Made by a program: the position numbers and the translations under genes
Assembly (NCBI GenBank): GCA_002085155.1
Contig: NASX01000024.1
Location: 33,456-72,646 of the forward strand
Length of the DNA: 39,191 bases
Reading direction: 5' to 3'
Origin: Sorangiineae bacterium NIC37A_2
GTDB taxonomy: Bacteria > Myxococcota_A > Polyangia > Polyangiales > Polyangiaceae
Shown: in pieces, positions 17,811-23,994 of the stretch
Layout of the letters: each line of letters opens with the position of its first letter
Position numbering within the stretch: position 1 is the first letter of the stretch
The notes under the pieces: generated by a model
What the model saw: the letters and a program-made list of their open reading frames with translations, nothing else
Database searches by the model: none
Told to the model about the DNA's origin: nothing

Positions 17811-20066
17811 TCAGGAGGCCTGCGCTTGGAAGGTGTGCGGGACGTCGGCGACGGGCAGGTGCTCGTTGAGCTCACCGAACTCAACAGTGCCACTCGCGAC
17901 GTCATACATCGCGCAGACAATCGCGATCTTTCCTTGGTCCATGAGCTCCTTGAGCTTCGGACTCTTGGTGACGAGATTGTCCATCGTGCGGTTGACGTTG
18001 CGACGGGCGACCTGATCGACGAACTGAGCCCGATCCTCGCCTTGAATCTGGAGAGCGAGGTCGTCATCGATCGACTTTTGGATCTCGTCGACGAGGACGT
18101 CGATGTGCTTGCAGCCGAGCTTGGTTCCGACGCTGGTCGTCTCTCCGAGATCTTCGACGGCAGCCGTGACAGCGCCACAGCGCGTATGGCCCATGATCAC
18201 GACGAGCTTCGCGCCAGCAGCGGCGCAAGCATACTCGACGCTGCCCATGACCTTCTCGCGAGCGACGTTGCCCGCGACGCGGACGCTGAAGATGTCGCCG
18301 ATACTGGCGTCAAACAGGATCTCCGCCGGCGCGCGGCTGTCGATACAACCGACGACCACGGCGAGCGGTGACTGAGCGGCCGCGGTACCGGCGATCTGAC
18401 GCGCAGCGTCGTGGCGGAAGTTCTCACCGCGCAGGAAGCGCTCGTTGCCTTGCTTGAGGAGCTCGAGCACCTGGGCGGGGTTCATCGTGCGCTGCACACC
18501 GCGGGTGACGTGCTCCTGGAACAGGATGACGTCGGCCAAATCGGAGCGATACCGCTCGAGTCCAACCATACTGACCTTGAGGTCGTGGGCGGGGGCGTGA
18601 TGGTGCACGAAGTCCGAGAGGTAAGTCAGGATGTCGGGATCGATGTAGTCGGCCGACCGGGCGTCGAGGAGCACGTGGCTGCCGCGCGGGACCTCATCGA
18701 GGGCGCGTTCCAGGACGGAGCGTCCGAGGAAGCTGACTTGCTCGACGAACTCGATGCGCACAAGCTCGTAACCTGCGCGCTTCTCCACGAGTCTACGTAC
18801 GGGACGGCGGGAGTTGCTGTAGAGAATGAAGGTGATCGAGATAACGAGGCCGATCACGATGCCCTTGAGCATGTCCGTGAGAACGATCGCGGCGACGGTC
18901 GCGAGGAAGGGCAAGAGCTGAGCCTTTCCGCCACGGGCCATGCTGACGAAGAGGCTCGGGCTGGCGAGTTTGAAGCCTGTGACCACCAGGATGGCTGCGA
19001 GAGCCGAGAGCGGGATGGTGTTCAAAAGCGTGGGCAAGAAGAGCACGCAGAGCAGGAGGAGGATGCCGTGAATGATGGCGCTCATCTTCGTCTCTGCGCC
19101 TGCGCCTACGTTGACGCTTCCGCGGACGACGACGCTCGTTACGGGCAGGCCACCGAGCAGGCCCGAGGTCATATTCCCGATGCCTTGAGCCACGAGCTCA
19201 CGGCTGGCCGGTGAACGGCGCTGTTTCGGATCGAGGGCATCGACAGCTTCGAGATTCAAGAGGGTCTCGAGGGAAGCGACGATGGCGAGCGTCACCGCGG
19301 CCATGTAGGTTGCTCCGTTGGCGAGGGCGCTGAAGTCAGGGGTCGTCAGGAGCTCAAAGAACGCGGACTTGTCCTCGAGGACGGGCACCTGGACCAGGTG
19401 GCTGGTGGCGAGCTCAAAGGGCCCTCCGAGGGACGAAAGCGCCTTGGTGAGAAGGACACCAATGGCGACGACCGCGAGCGGAGCCGGGATCTTCGTTCGC
19501 TTGAGCAGGGCTACCTTGTCCCAGACAAGCAAGAGCCCGATCGAGACGAGGCCGATGATGAGCGCGGTGTATTGAACGTCGAAGAATGATGCGAGCACCT
19601 CGGTGAAGGTGTTCTCGCGATCCGCCTGTTCGAAAGCCATGTCCCCGATCGGGTCCGGATCGTGACCGATCACGTGGGGAACCTGCTTGAGGATCAGGAT
19701 GACGCCGATGGCAGCGAGCAGACCTTTGACGACCGCGGACGGGAAGAAGTGCGCAATGAACCCGGCGCGCACCAGACCGAGCACGAGCTGGAAGACTCCT
19801 GCGATCACGGTGGCGGCGAGGAAGGCGCGGAACGAGCCGAGGGTGGCGATCTGGGTCGCGACGATAGCGGTCAGACCGGCAGCAGGGCCGCTGACGCTCG
19901 TATGGGATCCGCTGAGCGCGCCGACGACCACACCGCCGACGATGCCCGCGAGCAGGCCGGAGAAGAGGGGGGCCCCGGATGCCAATGCGATGCCGAGGCA
20001 CAAGGGGAGCGCAACCAGGAAGGTCACGCTTCCAGCGGGGAAGTCTTTCGAAAGGGTCTTGAACAT
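17811..20066 (-). CDS. SulP-family anion transporter fused to beta-carbonic anhydrase (probable bicarbonate importer)
   Basis: 751 aa from the ATG at 20066. Residues 1-400 form a SulP transporter (KDFPAGSVTFLVALPLCLGIA; SGPAAGLTAIV). A STAS-like domain follows (about 425-520, SFLGRSVLERALDEVPRG), then a complete beta-carbonic anhydrase (about 545-745) with C574 and D576/R578 (GCIDSRA) and H627/C630 (GHTRCGAV) as zinc and catalytic residues. SulP-carbonic anhydrase fusions are known and fit CO2/bicarbonate uptake with interconversion at the exit site; sulfate is less likely. An in-frame ATG at 20213 would add 49 Arg/Pro-rich residues with no family similarity, so 20066 is preferred. It is convergent with the GST gene. 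Confidence 0.9.
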   Translation of the reverse strand: MFKTLSKDFPAGSVTFLVALPLCLGIALASGAPLFSGLLAGIVGGVVVGALSGSHTSVSGPAAGLTAIVATQIATLGSFRAFLAATVIAGVFQLVLGLVRAGFIAHFFPSAVVKGLLAAIGVILILKQVPHVIGHDPDPIGDMAFEQADRENTFTEVLASFFDVQYTALIIGLVSIGLLLVWDKVALLKRTKIPAPLAVVAIGVLLTKALSSLGGPFELATSHLVQVPVLEDKSAFFELLTTPDFSALANGATYMAAVTLAIVASLETLLNLEAVDALDPKQRRSPASRELVAQGIGNMTSGLLGGLPVTSVVVRGSVNVGAGAETKMSAIIHGILLLLCVLFLPTLLNTIPLSALAAILVVTGFKLASPSLFVSMARGGKAQLLPFLATVAAIVLTDMLKGIVIGLVISITFILYSNSRRPVRRLVEKRAGYELVRIEFVEQVSFLGRSVLERALDEVPRGSHVLLDARSADYIDPDILTYLSDFVHHHAPAHDLKVSMVGLERYRSDLADVILFQEHVTRGVQRTMNPAQVLELLKQGNERFLRGENFRHDAARQIAGTAAAQSPLAVVVGCIDSRAPAEILFDASIGDIFSVRVAGNVAREKVMGSVEYACAAAGAKLVVIMGHTRCGAVTAAVEDLGETTSVGTKLGCKHIDVLVDEIQKSIDDDLALQIQGEDRAQFVDQVARRNVNRTMDNLVTKSPKLKELMDQGKIAIVCAMYDVASGTVEFGELNEHLPVADVPHTFQAQAS

Positions 20067-20630
20067 CGGGTAGATTCTCGGTTCAGAAGGGTCGGTGGAC
20101 GACTGCCTGTGAGCGAAGGGAGAGCGTGAGGTCGACCAGAATGCGATGGGAGCTCTCTCTGGATCGCGAACTGGTCCGCGAGGTCTTCGTGATACGAATC
20201 TCGTCGCGCTCATCGCTGTGCACGTCGCGCATCACCAATGCTCAGGATATCCCCACAGATCCAAGGTCGCGCAAGGAGGAAGCAACACAACGTGAACGAT
20301 TCTCGCTGCGGGATCGAAATGTGTTCCTGATTGGTGACTCTCAAATAGCTCAGTTGTCGGAATCTCCAGACGCCGCATCAGGTGCTGTGCGGAATTTCCG
20401 ACACGTGCCTAGGGCGACCGTCGGTCGCTCGGGTCGGCGGGGGCTGCCGGCGGCGCTAGCCAGCAAGTCCCTGAGAATCCGGAGCTTTTCGGCGCGATCC
20501 TGCGCGCATTGTCGTAGTGGAGCGCGTTCTGGCCCGGGGGCCTGCGCCTCCCGAAACGTTGGAGAGGCGGGCGCGCGCCTCATGTTTCGTGATTTCGAGA
20601 CCGCATTTCGAGACCGCACCTGAGCGCGAT
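20067..20630. other. 564-bp intergenic region, no convincing gene
   Basis: Lies between the CarF-like gene and the SulP-carbonic anhydrase gene (both minus) and must hold the promoter of the latter. Open frames here, such as 20126-20623 on the plus strand, have Arg/Ser-rich translations without recognisable domains. The first half is less GC-rich than its neighbours. TGTCGGAA (20355-20362) and TTCCGACA (20396-20403) form an 8-bp inverted repeat with a 33-nt spacer. No clear sigma70 hexamers were identified. Confidence 0.6.
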
Positions 20631-21293
20631 CTAGCTCCACTCCGGCTCGGGCTTGTTTTCAGTGGGACTGCTTTGCCCAGAGAGACCTCCGAAGACGGCC
20701 CGATCCCAAAAACCACTTGTGATGCAATAGTGGCTTCGGTGGGCGCCCGTGTGGTGGCATGCGTGCTGCTCGGGGGAGAGCAAGATACCTATGCGCTGCG
20801 CCCTGCGCACCCAGACTGGAACGACTCGTTGATGAGCCCAGACGTGAATCTGGCCAGTGAGCACAACCCAAAACGAAAGGCTCACTAGGAAAAACGCGAC
20901 TCCGACATGGAGCCCGGTCACCGAGACTGGCGCGGAAGCGTCACCAACGACGAGCGCTCCTGCCAGGAAAGGAATCGTCCCGATGGCGTGGGATCCTATG
21001 CGTTCGCAGAGTCCGTGGCTCAGGATCGCGTCGGGGAAGCTGTGGTGCTCGCGGAAGGGAGCAATGAAGCCGGGACCTAAGATCGGCCAAGCCGAATGCC
21101 CGATGCGGTCGCCGGCGAAATGAATGAGGCCACTCAGCAGGTCGGAGAGGAGCCAAGCTAAGAAGAAGCTGAGCGCCCCGAGGGTGAGCGTTTCCTCGAT
21201 CGGAAGCGCGCTCGATAGAATCACGGTGCGCATCACTGCCCATGACAAGAGGAGAGTGAACGCAAGCACGCCCAGGGTCTCAAGAGCCCGCAC
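20631..21293 (-). CDS. carF: CarF/TMEM189 (PEDS1)-type plasmanylethanolamine desaturase
   Basis: Membrane enzyme that introduces the vinyl-ether bond of plasmalogens; in Myxococcus the homologue CarF is needed for the singlet-oxygen carotenoid response. With the GTG at 21293 the product is 220 aa. It has four or so hydrophobic segments and the family's histidine pattern: H58 and H66 (LIHFAGDRIGHS), H83/H84 (REHHSFP), H93, H150/H154 (GQIHVWAH), and H177, H180, H181, H185, H188 (QHACHHTGAHRSHYCITSG). The same frame stays open to 21665, but the extra 124 residues are hydrophilic, unlike the family, and antisense to the next gene. The start could also be the ATG at 21233. The assignment is firm at domain level; CarF itself is longer (about 280 aa). 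Confidence 0.82.
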   Translation of the reverse strand: MRALETLGVLAFTLLLSWAVMRTVILSSALPIEETLTLGALSFFLAWLLSDLLSGLIHFAGDRIGHSAWPILGPGFIAPFREHHSFPDAILSHGLCERIGSHAIGTIPFLAGALVVGDASAPVSVTGLHVGVAFFLVSLSFWVVLTGQIHVWAHQRVVPVWVRRAQRIGILLSPEQHACHHTGAHRSHYCITSGFWDRAVFGGLSGQSSPTENKPEPEWS

Positions 21294-21377
21294 CCAGGAC
21301 GCCTGAACCCCGGCTCGTTCCTCTTCGTGACACAATGCTCCTTGTTTCTCGCGGCCCGGCGATGGACGCTCGCTCTG

Positions 21378-22943
21378 ATGTTCCAAGAGTTCTACGGGAG
21401 CTTCTTTCAGCACCCCGTGATGCTGTGGGCGATCCCGCTTCTTTACGTCGGGCTCCGTTTTCGCGCGCTGTCCGGGCTCGAGCGACCGAGTTTCCTCGCG
21501 CCTTACTTGAAGCTGGTGACGGTCGGAACCCTGCTCGACGCGACCCTCACGACCGAAAGCATCATCGAATGGGCTTCCGTCTCCCCCGGGCTTGCCCAAG
21601 CGATCGCGATCGTTTTTGTCATCTTGGGTGACTTTCGCGTTCTCTATCTTGTTCTTCGCCTGCACGGTTCTCCCTATCAGACAGGGATCGCGGCTCTCGC
21701 GATGAGTCTAGTCGTACCACTCCTTCAAGGTCTCCTCACGCAGATTTTCCCGGAGTGGTTCGCAAACGTGCGTCACACGTTTTTGGTCTATGAGCTCTTG
21801 TTCATCGCGCTCCTCGTCGCGCTCCTCTTGCGACAGAGAAAGCTGGAAAATGAACCGGGCGTCCAGCTCGCGCGCGATGTGCTTGTGTATGCGCTCACTT
21901 ACTACTGCCTATGGGCCACTGCCGATATCATCATTGTCGCCGGCTTCGACGTCGGCTACCTGATCCGCGTCATCCCTAACGTGCTTTACTACGGTGTGTT
22001 CGTCGTGTTCGTCGACTATCGGGCCTCTGTCCGTCCCCTGGGGACGCGGAGTCTAAAGGCGACGCTTGTCGTTTCCTTGATTGCTCTTCTGGGGCTCCCC
22101 TTGGGATGTTCTCGCGCCGATGGCAGCCCGGCTCCCTGTGGGGAGACGCGGCCCGTCAGCACAGAGGCGCCGCGAGTTGCCCCAGAGAGCGCGCGCATCA
22201 GACTCGGAGACCCAAAAGGCGAGGGCCGTGAGGTGACCCTCGCCGAGGTGGAGAAGGCGCTCGGCGCCGGCAAGAAAGTCGAGACGTTCGATCCATATTA
22301 CTCGGCTCACAAAGCCTTTTGGGGATGGCCCGCGTCGGAGTTTTTGGCTTGGGCATTTCCCGGGCAGGGCGAAGGAGGCGAAGTGGAGCTCCGAGCGGTG
22401 GACGGATATGAAGTGCGGCTTTCTCTGAGCCAGCTCGCGCGCGATCGAGCTTTTTTCGTCTACGCGGACGCGGAGCTTCCCTCCTGGGCTCCGATTGGGC
22501 CGCGGGCCGCTGACCCGGGGCCCCTCTACCTCGTCTGGCCCGGTGAAAAGCACACGGACCTCACGACGCACCCGCGCCCCTACAGCGTCGTCGCGCTCAG
22601 AAAGGTGAGCGAAGAAAAAGTGCGCTTCGGGCCTCCCGAAGGGTTCGCTGAAGGGACGCCCGAGCGGCGGGGGGAGGAGCTCTTTGAAAGTCGCTGCATT
22701 CGCTGCCACGCCATGAACCAAGTGGGCGGGAAGGTCGGCCCCGATCTCAACGTTCCGCGGAATATCCTCGAGTACCGCGCCGAGGCCGATGTCGTCGCCT
22801 ACATCCGCGATCCCGGGGCTTTCCGCTACGGGACCATGCCCTCTCACCCGGATCTTTCGGAGGAAGATCTCTCAGCGCTCACTCAATTTTTGCGTGCGAT
22901 GCAGAAGTTCAAACACGACCCCGGTTCGAAAGGAGCCCATTGA
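21378..22943 (+). CDS. Fusion of a multi-pass membrane domain, a molybdopterin-oxidoreductase-like domain and cytochrome c
   Basis: 521 aa from the ATG at 21378 (a GTG at 21327 would add 17). Residues 1-225 hold about seven hydrophobic segments with no recognised family. A further hydrophobic stretch ends in LGLPLGCS, which looks like a lipoprotein signal inside the protein. A domain of about 150 residues follows (FDPYYSAHKAFWGWPASEFL; PGPLYLVWPGEKH) that resembles the molybdopterin-binding-like domains often found before cytochromes c. The C terminus is a class I cytochrome c: CIRCH heme site, GPDLN, and the likely axial Met in YGTMPSH. It is probably a periplasm-facing electron-transfer protein. 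It is divergent from carF (84 bp apart) and its stop overlaps the next start (TTGA). Confidence 0.7.
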   Translation: MFQEFYGSFFQHPVMLWAIPLLYVGLRFRALSGLERPSFLAPYLKLVTVGTLLDATLTTESIIEWASVSPGLAQAIAIVFVILGDFRVLYLVLRLHGSPYQTGIAALAMSLVVPLLQGLLTQIFPEWFANVRHTFLVYELLFIALLVALLLRQRKLENEPGVQLARDVLVYALTYYCLWATADIIIVAGFDVGYLIRVIPNVLYYGVFVVFVDYRASVRPLGTRSLKATLVVSLIALLGLPLGCSRADGSPAPCGETRPVSTEAPRVAPESARIRLGDPKGEGREVTLAEVEKALGAGKKVETFDPYYSAHKAFWGWPASEFLAWAFPGQGEGGEVELRAVDGYEVRLSLSQLARDRAFFVYADAELPSWAPIGPRAADPGPLYLVWPGEKHTDLTTHPRPYSVVALRKVSEEKVRFGPPEGFAEGTPERRGEELFESRCIRCHAMNQVGGKVGPDLNVPRNILEYRAEADVVAYIRDPGAFRYGTMPSHPDLSEEDLSALTQFLRAMQKFKHDPGSKGAH

Positions 22944-23994
22944 TCTTGGTTGCAAGGAGCTCAAAGCATCAGTTTCAAGCGGCCTGTGCGGCTCTGCCTT
23001 CGGCCCTCGAAGGACTCCGGCTCGGCGAAAGCGTCGCTCTTGAGCCCATAGTGCGCGCGCTCGCGCGCGGCGCCGCGGTCGATGTTGCGGGAGTGGGGGG
23101 CTCGGAGGGGCCCGCGCGGTTTCTGACCGCCGTTCTCGCTGAGCTTTGTGTGCCATCGACGTATCGCCCCGTCACGCATTTCCTCGAGCGGAGAGAAGCG
23201 TCAAGCCGAGTGCTCGTTGTCTTTTCCCAAGGGCTCTCGCCCAACGCGCGCCTGATGCTCTCCCGCGCGAGCGAATACGCATGCGCGCTTCTGGTCACGA
23301 GTGCCTCTTCGGTAGAAGGGGAAGAGGGGACAGAGCTCCGGACAAAAGGCGTCACGCTCTTGCCGCTCGAAGTGCCCTTTGAACCTCGTGCGCTCGTACG
23401 CTTGACCGGACCGACGCTGTTCCGGGCGCTCGCATTCCTTCTGGGGATTGAGCTCGGAAGGCGAATGGGGCGGCCCGAGCCATCCTTTGCCGTGAGCCCG
23501 AAGGAGCTCGCCCGCGTCTACCAGGCGGGAGTCAGGCTCAGGGGCGCGAGCTTTCGCGCCTTTTGCCGCAAAGTGGTCTCGAAGGCATCATCGTAGGGGA
23601 GCCGATTGTCGACCTTGTGCAAGTCGAAGCGGCCAAATGGCGAGAAGCGCTGTGGTGCGCTCCTCCGCCGGTCTTCGACGCTCTCGGCTTCGCTCATGGG
23701 CCGCTTCAGACCCTCGAGAAGGGAGAAGCACCTCTGCTCGTGGTGCATGGCGCGGGGGAGCGCGGACTCTCGCTGTTCGCGCGCGTGCGAGCGTGCCTGG
23801 AGCGCGCCGGTCGGCGCTCGGTGAGTGTCCCGTTGGCTCTCCCGGCCCCGCTCTCGGCCCTCGAGGTGGACGCAGTGATCAATGAGATTCTGCTGGAGCG
23901 CATGCCGGAATGCCCCGAAGAGTGGCCGGGACAGGGCTGGGACGGACCGCTTTACGGGCTCGGCGATCCCGAGGACTGCTCAGCGCTCGCGTGA
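22940..23994 (+). pseudogene. SIS-domain sugar isomerase-like gene split by a frameshift
   Basis: Two overlapping frames together make one double-SIS protein of about 350 aa. The first (22940-23596) starts at a TTG overlapping the upstream stop (TTGA) with AAGGAG just before it. It holds the first SIS domain (VDVAGVGGSEGPARFL; VLVVFSQGLSPNARLML). The second (open at 23563-23994, one base back) continues with the second SIS domain: EGIIVGEPIVDLVQVEAAKW and the ALGFAHGP motif equivalent to ELKHGP in GlmS-type isomerases. The break lies at about 23555-23597. It could be a real mutation, a consensus base deletion, programmed -1 shifting, or two separately translated halves. Its 3' end overlaps the convergent hydrolase gene by 15 bp. 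The substrate is unknown. Confidence 0.65.

Follow-up and report, generated by a model that had tools for sequence, protein, structure and literature searches.

The fused gene and its junction

The window, i.e., the whole stretch of 39,191 nucleotides that was analysed, stems from a genome in 150 contigs (~98% complete) and carries on its forward strand a gene at 21378..22943 in which a 7TM domain, an internal signal, a PruR-like domain, and a cytochrome c domain are joined. The frame extends from an ATG at 21378 to a stop codon at 22941-22943 over 521 codons with no internal stop, which bears out the frame and positions given in the initial annotation. All four unlike segments that had been proposed to share it were found (7TM, signal-like stretch, SUOX-fold domain, and cytochrome c), the cytochrome c domain being the sole Pfam match of the protein. 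An upstream in-frame GTG (21327) would extend the product by 17 amino acids; in the alignment, the starts of homologues cluster near the ATG instead. The same segments form an open frame of 538 amino acids in a second species of the genus (genome G330, locus L031; 40% identity to the window protein), and a further, apparently separate fusion was detected in Polyangia bacterium Co_bin.371 (locus L150).

Divergent from the fusion lies a gene for a Lipid_desat/CarF-like membrane protein (20631..21356, reverse strand; PF10520, E 2e-35; family match 20697-21269), the start of which is uncertain. On the other side, the stop codon of the fusion is overlapped by a homologue of SIS-type sugar isomerases (22940..23994, forward strand). 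Near 23533-23566, this isomerase gene changes from one frame to another (family HMM 4-191, then 201-336), which marks either a pseudogene or an assembly error; hence, whether genuine or an artefact, at least one frameshift is present in the contig. Farther away on the reverse strand, an ORF of 800 amino acids (17811-20213) looks by eye like a SulP-type transporter fused to a carbonic anhydrase.

The two halves of the fusion meet in a signal-like stretch (RSLKATLVVSLIALLGLPLGC). Codon inspection and a lipobox scan placed its helix (TRSLKATLVVSLIALLGLPLGC; 22044..22109, forward strand) such that it ends at Cys244 (codon 22107-22109), and a counterpart is present in L031. The initial annotation described this junction as looking exactly like a lipoprotein signal. 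A signal-like stretch with a Cys is indeed there, but the Pro at -3 fails the strict lipobox pattern of the PROSITE type. In the second species, Cys244 is matched by the Cys of a lipobox (GISGC) that passes this pattern. By a conservative automatic rule, at least 46 of 104 distinct cytochrome halves have a lipobox (34 strict), among them the window and L031 but not L150; this number is a lower bound because the rule missed visible lipoboxes (e.g., L057, L062, and L071). Where a GTP cyclohydrolase II-like gene lies nearby, two of 13 cytochrome halves passed the rule (L159 and L160) and 11 failed. The Cys is thus shared by the two genus members and many unfused halves. L150 lacks it, as do, by this rule, those 11 loci, so that lipidation appears not to be essential to the design; L150 suggests that even a fusion can do without it.

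In neither of the two fused genus members does the second half have a plausible start codon of its own. Between the end of helix 7 and Cys244 in the window, TTG 22077 is the sole in-frame ATG, GTG, or TTG, and three GTGs (21981, 21996, and 22005) all lie within helix 7. Translation from TTG 22077 would leave 10 residues ahead of Cys244, none of them positively charged, and no Shine-Dalgarno-like sequence was seen by eye for this codon. Given the split isomerase gene next to it, the fusion could be merely apparent and stem from an assembly error. We consider this very improbable, as the second half lacks a usable start in both genomes and the same fusion was recovered at 40% identity from another species' assembly, on which ground we rejected a chance open frame or an assembly join. 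The fusion of the 7TM protein and the cytochrome is real.

Domain architecture

The 7TM half (21405..22031, residues 10-218) was modelled with AlphaFold from 49 sequences (mean pLDDT 91.5), and seven TM helices were predicted. Twelve columns are invariant in the 49 rows (D54, G84, D85, R87, E139, Y176, W179, D183, R197, P200, Y204, and Y205), of which D54, D85, R87, E139, D183, and R197 lie inside predicted helices. In 48 of the 49 rows, Lys and Arg are more frequent on the side predicted to face inwards, and the remaining row is a tie; this points to an N-out/C-in orientation. With this orientation, the following signal-like helix can run outwards, and Cys244 would reach the periplasmic face.

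What kind of membrane protein this is was addressed by residue conservation and fold searches. No heme-ligand His is conserved within the membrane in the 49 rows; His exceeds 30% in only two columns, 11 (49%) and 12 (51%), both located where TM1 meets the outside. A b-type heme membrane cytochrome was therefore rejected, there being no conserved intramembrane His pairs. Likewise, a microbial rhodopsin was rejected because the retinal Lys of helix 7 is missing: columns 192-216 contain none in 49 rows, and columns 217 and 218, at the helix end, have Lys in 1 and 9 rows. Fold searches were not diagnostic (best Foldseek E 0.027; VIA Z up to 13.2 with rhodopsins and GPCRs mixed), a predicted-structure match of Z ≤13.2 being within the range given by unrelated helical bundles. 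Pfam matches among the 49 7TM halves were scattered over families, none of which matched more than two members (the best, DUF4401, at E 0.00074 in a single member), and a profile of this half found no match among the PDB sequences.

The predicted topology, by setting the Cys on the periplasmic side, is also what would be expected if the gene product were a polyprotein. Its internal signal would then be cut, by LspA at Cys244 or by signal peptidase I in L150, to yield the 7TM protein and a separate lipoprotein cytochrome. Both genus members have the Cys and a positive charge before the hydrophobic stretch, and there is a precedent in Bradyrhizobium fbcH, where one precursor is cut into cytochromes b and c1. 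Like the fbcH product, the window protein joins a membrane protein and a cytochrome c through an internal signal; unlike it, the membrane half lacks heme b ligands and the putative cleavage site is of the Lsp type. Cleavage fits less well with the off-pattern Pro at -3 in the window, with the L150 fusion that lacks the lipobox Cys, and with the leftover helix that the mature N-terminal half would retain. We regard such processing as a serious possibility that falls somewhat short of probable. If it takes place, the fusion would be a matter of expression and stoichiometry only, and the maturation of the protein would change while its redox reading stays.

The middle domain (22185..22607, approximately residues 270-410) was modelled from 54 sequences with AlphaFold (pLDDT 92.1). 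In structural alignments with VIA, the top five entries were all PruR (7KOM, 7KP2, 7KOS, 7KOU, and 7RKB; Z 15.3-16.5, rmsd 2.4-2.7 over 129-131 residues). The best was 7KOM (Z 16.5, rmsd 2.4 Å, 129 residues), followed by the other four at Z 15.3-15.6 and then by sulfite oxidases at Z ≤13.0. The first seven chains returned by Foldseek were PruR as well (E 1.4e-6), and a family profile searched against the PDB sequences (E up to 10) gave three matches, all PruR (E 0.00099, 0.015, and 0.053).

PruR contains no Mo-ligating Cys and prefers tetrahydromonapterin over dihydromonapterin (PMC13259868). Its pterin site includes Tyr104 and Trp160, together with Asn102, which is an Asp in some groups (PMC13259868). 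PruR is described as a signalling protein for which evidence of pterin chemistry is lacking (PMC13259868). In the window protein, D342-G343-Y344 and Y402 align with these pterin-site residues, with NDY of 7KOM opposite the family DGY and WQL opposite YQL/WQL; the equivalences to Tyr104 and Trp160 derive from the 7KOM alignment and residue offsets. The DG of this DG(Y) motif is invariant, and a Tyr occupies the Tyr104 position in 50 of 54 rows (Y344 in the window). At the Trp160 position all 54 rows are aromatic (W 30, Y 23, and F 1), the window having Y402. The window protein resembles PruR in its SUOX-type fold, its similar size, its predicted export, the lack of a Mo-ligating Cys, and the Tyr at the putative Tyr104 equivalent. 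It differs from PruR in having Tyr instead of Trp at the putative Trp160 equivalent and in carrying a cytochrome c domain and, as in all three fused loci, a 7TM protein as well.

The initial annotation called this domain molybdopterin-like, a label that we would correct. The middle domain of the window contains no Cys and hence no Mo ligand, and no Mo-ligating Cys is conserved across the 54 rows. The residue two before DG(Y) is mostly Ala (42 rows, Ala340 in the window), with Thr and Ser in one row each and Cys in 10 (L063, L064, L065, L093, L096, L099, L101, L102, L103, and L104), four of which belong to the clade with a neighbouring GTP cyclohydrolase I (FolE). This is the commonest Cys column within the domain; another column with 11 is the edge of the lipobox. 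Judging from YedY and sulfite oxidase, we presume that a Cys at this place could be the Mo-ligand position. Such a Cys raises the option of Moco binding in some relatives, including four from the FolE clade, so that the family may be a mixture of Moco and plain-pterin proteins.

Alternatively, the fusion itself could be a Moco enzyme akin to sulfite oxidase that sits on a membrane anchor and, like SorAB, includes a heme c domain. SorAB pairs a SUOX fold with heme c, and sulfite oxidase, MsrP (YedY), and SorAB belong to the same fold superfamily as the middle domain. The Cys of the 10 rows would fit, as would the Pfam family Oxidored_molyb, which matched 4 of the 54 members (best E 1.6e-4). However, the window protein gave no Oxidored_molyb match at E up to 1, has no Cys in this domain, and matches these enzymes structurally less well than PruR. 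Even the 10 Cys rows, used alone as a profile against the PDB, matched only PruR. We hold a Moco enzyme to be improbable for the window protein and reject it less firmly for the 10 Cys-bearing relatives. The middle domain of the window is better read as a PruR-type domain that would bind a pterin without molybdenum. NCBIfam models matched the 54 middle domains in four families, the commonest being 'GEGP motif-containing diheme protein' with 3 members (best E 0.0043).

The C-terminal domain (22665..22901) is a class I cytochrome c (PF13442, E 5e-8; PF00034, E 2e-6). The heme-binding motif CIRCH comprises residues 440-444 (22695-22709), and the axial Met487 (codon 22836-22838) is followed by a Pro. 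Both CxxCH and MP are invariant in the 54 rows, as expected for class I. A profile of the whole cytochrome half had 231 matches in the PDB, and the 60 listed were cytochromes c matched via the heme domain. One heme c is predicted per fusion.

Separate genes and recurring neighbours in relatives

To what extent the two halves occur together was followed in 282 genomes of the phylum, with scoring limited to five candidates per genome, which makes absences soft. The whole window protein was matched in 88 of these genomes, many of them through the cytochrome c domain only. By hand count, the 7TM half is present in 38 genomes, 37 of which also carry the cytochrome half (the weak matches of G275 and G079 were counted after profile confirmation); the exception, G215, is 76% complete. 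The cytochrome half was hand-counted in 47 genomes, ten of which gave no 7TM match; weak matches reaching the middle domain (G025, G118, G181, and G224) were excluded from this number. A family search of 108 genomes found both halves in 25 (hand count) and a single open frame in two, the window genome and G330. Within the genus, both members having the halves have them fused, and a third member (G329) lacks both, with generic cytochrome c matches only. A first scan of genome contigs with the single window protein as query had found no relative.

For gene neighbourhoods, we combined 60 stretches from 55 genomes with the window and 80 loci of named relatives (80 kept of 112); 12 further genomes with a half lie outside this set. 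Dropping 31 duplicates of the cytochrome half left 110 distinct loci. These were searched with profiles in six frames, because the gene caller was crude and made antisense errors at high GC.

The halves are separate genes in 66 of the 69 distinct loci that have both, and they are fused in the window, L031, and L150. This bears out the suggestion in the initial annotation that two genes had become one: relatives encode the membrane protein and an exported cytochrome separately, and the junction coincides with the signal sequence of the second protein. The annotation had also allowed for halves that are always separate, with a start codon near 22070, and the three fused loci show otherwise. In 45 of the 69 loci, these three included, both domains lie on one strand with the 7TM domain first and fewer than 700 bases between them. 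The others comprise 7 loci with the domains near each other on opposite strands, 5 that begin with the cytochrome, and 12 in which the distance is greater. In G355, the halves are contiguous and in the same frame with a TGA between them.

A tree of 68 concatenated pairs placed the window and L031 as sisters (support 0.99). L150 grouped in another clade, with the unfused L161 (0.88) and then L155 (0.92), so that, on the present data, the fusion arose at least twice. The linker of L150 contains no ATG, GTG, or TTG and no lipobox Cys; its evidence is weaker because the contig name states a coverage of 2.7.

The 110 loci contained the 7TM half in 74 cases, the cytochrome half in 105, an SIS-type gene in 60, a GTP cyclohydrolase II-like gene (PF00925) in 14, a creatininase homologue (PF02633) in 13, FolE (PF01227) in 9, and Lipid_desat in 14, counts in which relatedness is ignored and absences are soft, as contigs are unequal in length. 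The SIS assignment comes from profile matches in the PDB: among 11 matches in all, tagatose-6-phosphate and related sugar isomerases scored E 0.0003 to 0.06, and unrelated phosphatases and others appeared from E 0.24 up. SIS stands without GTP cyclohydrolase II-like and creatininase genes in 46 of its 60 loci. Conversely, SIS accompanies the GTP cyclohydrolase II-like gene in 13 of its 14 loci, and the remaining one (L159) ends at a contig edge. GTP cyclohydrolase II-like, SIS, and creatininase genes form a tight set in L089, L110, L112, L113, L154, L156, L158, L160, L166, L168, L173, and L177, and the crude gene caller placed isomerase and creatininase in one ORF in L089, L110, L112, and L113. 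The record of L168 is titled as a Klebsiella pneumoniae MAG and has a myxococcal-type cluster, a label that looks wrong.

In a different set of loci (L093-L098, L100, L101, and L104), a divergent GTP cyclohydrolase I (FolE) stands beside the pair of PruR-cytochrome and 7TM genes. A search for FolE in 28 genomes revealed a second, stronger FolE elsewhere in all seven genomes that have this cluster; the other 21 have one FolE (eighteen genomes), two (G330), or none (G120 and G292). FolE and SIS were never found in one locus (0/110). This mutual exclusion would suggest that both gene sets make a pterin for the PruR-like cytochrome. FolE alone carries out GTP ring opening, formate removal, an Amadori rearrangement, and pterin ring closure, and the archaeal deformylase ArfB belongs to the creatininase family. 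The ring-opening enzyme and the homologues of creatininase and sugar isomerases could together cover the FolE steps in pieces, making this set a candidate split pterin route.

The desaturase homologue lies near the 7TM gene in other clades too, and all 14 desaturase loci have the 7TM gene. Compared with CarF/PEDS1 plasmanylethanolamine desaturases, the window neighbour shares the Lipid_desat family and scores 104 bits with the NCBIfam CarF model against a cut-off of 500.

The neighbours also bear on whether the protein signals or respires. If it were a pterin/redox sensor, pterin binding would alter contacts with the 7TM half and the heme would merely report oxidation, giving a signal rather than a current. 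The nearest fold is that of PruR, which is described as a signalling protein (PMC13259868), and the 7TM half is a receptor- or rhodopsin-like bundle. However, the window fusion is flanked by a desaturase and an isomerase gene with no signalling output and, unlike the two-gene operon of PruR, no DcpA- or DTB-type regulator; the recurrent neighbours in relatives are enzyme families, and a heme c with invariant His and Met would be costly for a pure sensor. We consider a sensor rather unlikely.

A putative pterin-linked redox protein

The pair and its neighbours suggest a redox unit at the cell surface that is linked to pterins and, to our knowledge, undescribed. We judge it on balance probable that the fusion is a membrane-tethered, periplasm-facing pterin/heme c redox protein with a 7TM partner and a pterin made by neighbouring genes. 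Its first half would have the N-terminus outside and the C-terminus inside, and the former signal sequence would serve as an eighth membrane helix running from inside to outside, delivering the second half to the periplasm. There, the PruR-like domain may bind a small reduced pterin rather than Moco, and the class I cytochrome c would exchange electrons with it, most likely from a tetrahydropterin to heme c and on to the respiratory chain. Invariant Asp, Glu, Arg, Tyr, and Trp residues lie within the membrane in the 7TM half, which could be the cognate membrane partner, perhaps a pterin carrier. The pterin would be made from GTP by the neighbours: in one clade by a dedicated second GTP cyclohydrolase I, and elsewhere with the sugar-isomerase homologue, alone or together with GTP cyclohydrolase II-like and creatininase-family proteins.

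The electron-transfer unit is not self-contained, as the initial annotation had imagined, because the membrane half conserves no His inside the membrane that could ligate heme b, a single heme c is predicted, and genes for partners are found repeatedly. Counting against the redox unit, Trp160 of PruR is Tyr402 in the window, the isomerase gene of the window is interrupted, and many records labelled as other phyla have the cytochrome half with no 7TM half nearby. Nor is it obvious where a lipid desaturase would fit into a chain from pterin to cytochrome.

A wider reading, which we find doubtful, would place the locus in a new system of Myxococcota that uses a pterin for respiration or lipid redox chemistry. 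In it, the 7TM protein would carry a dedicated pterin across the membrane, the pterin-binding cytochrome c would oxidize it, and the process would be coupled to the desaturase. The pterin might be made from GTP by a second GTP cyclohydrolase I or, in place of that enzyme, along a split route in the order of GTP cyclohydrolase II-like ring opening, creatininase-type deformylation, an isomerase-type Amadori step, and closure. Were this true, no earlier pterin carrier would be of the same kind as the 7TM protein.

Both PruR-type binding proteins and cytochromes c with several domains are already known. Among open-licence full texts, which cover the literature in part, we found no report of a PruR-like domain combined with cytochrome c or fused to a 7TM protein; the open-licence texts listed for GTP cyclohydrolase with plasmanylethanolamine desaturase or for pterin export likewise showed nothing on such a protein, and for PruR itself only the review PMC13259868 was found. 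The candidates offered here, namely a pterin carrier, periplasmic electron transfer from pterin to cytochrome, and a second genetic route to pterins, can each be tested with one protein or one deletion.

Lone cytochrome halves in records of other phyla had no consistent neighbour by eye in 12 loci. In two records, labelled Dadabacteria and Thermodesulfobacteriales (L178 and L182), the lone PruR-cytochrome gene adjoins, by eye, a cytochrome P450-like gene.
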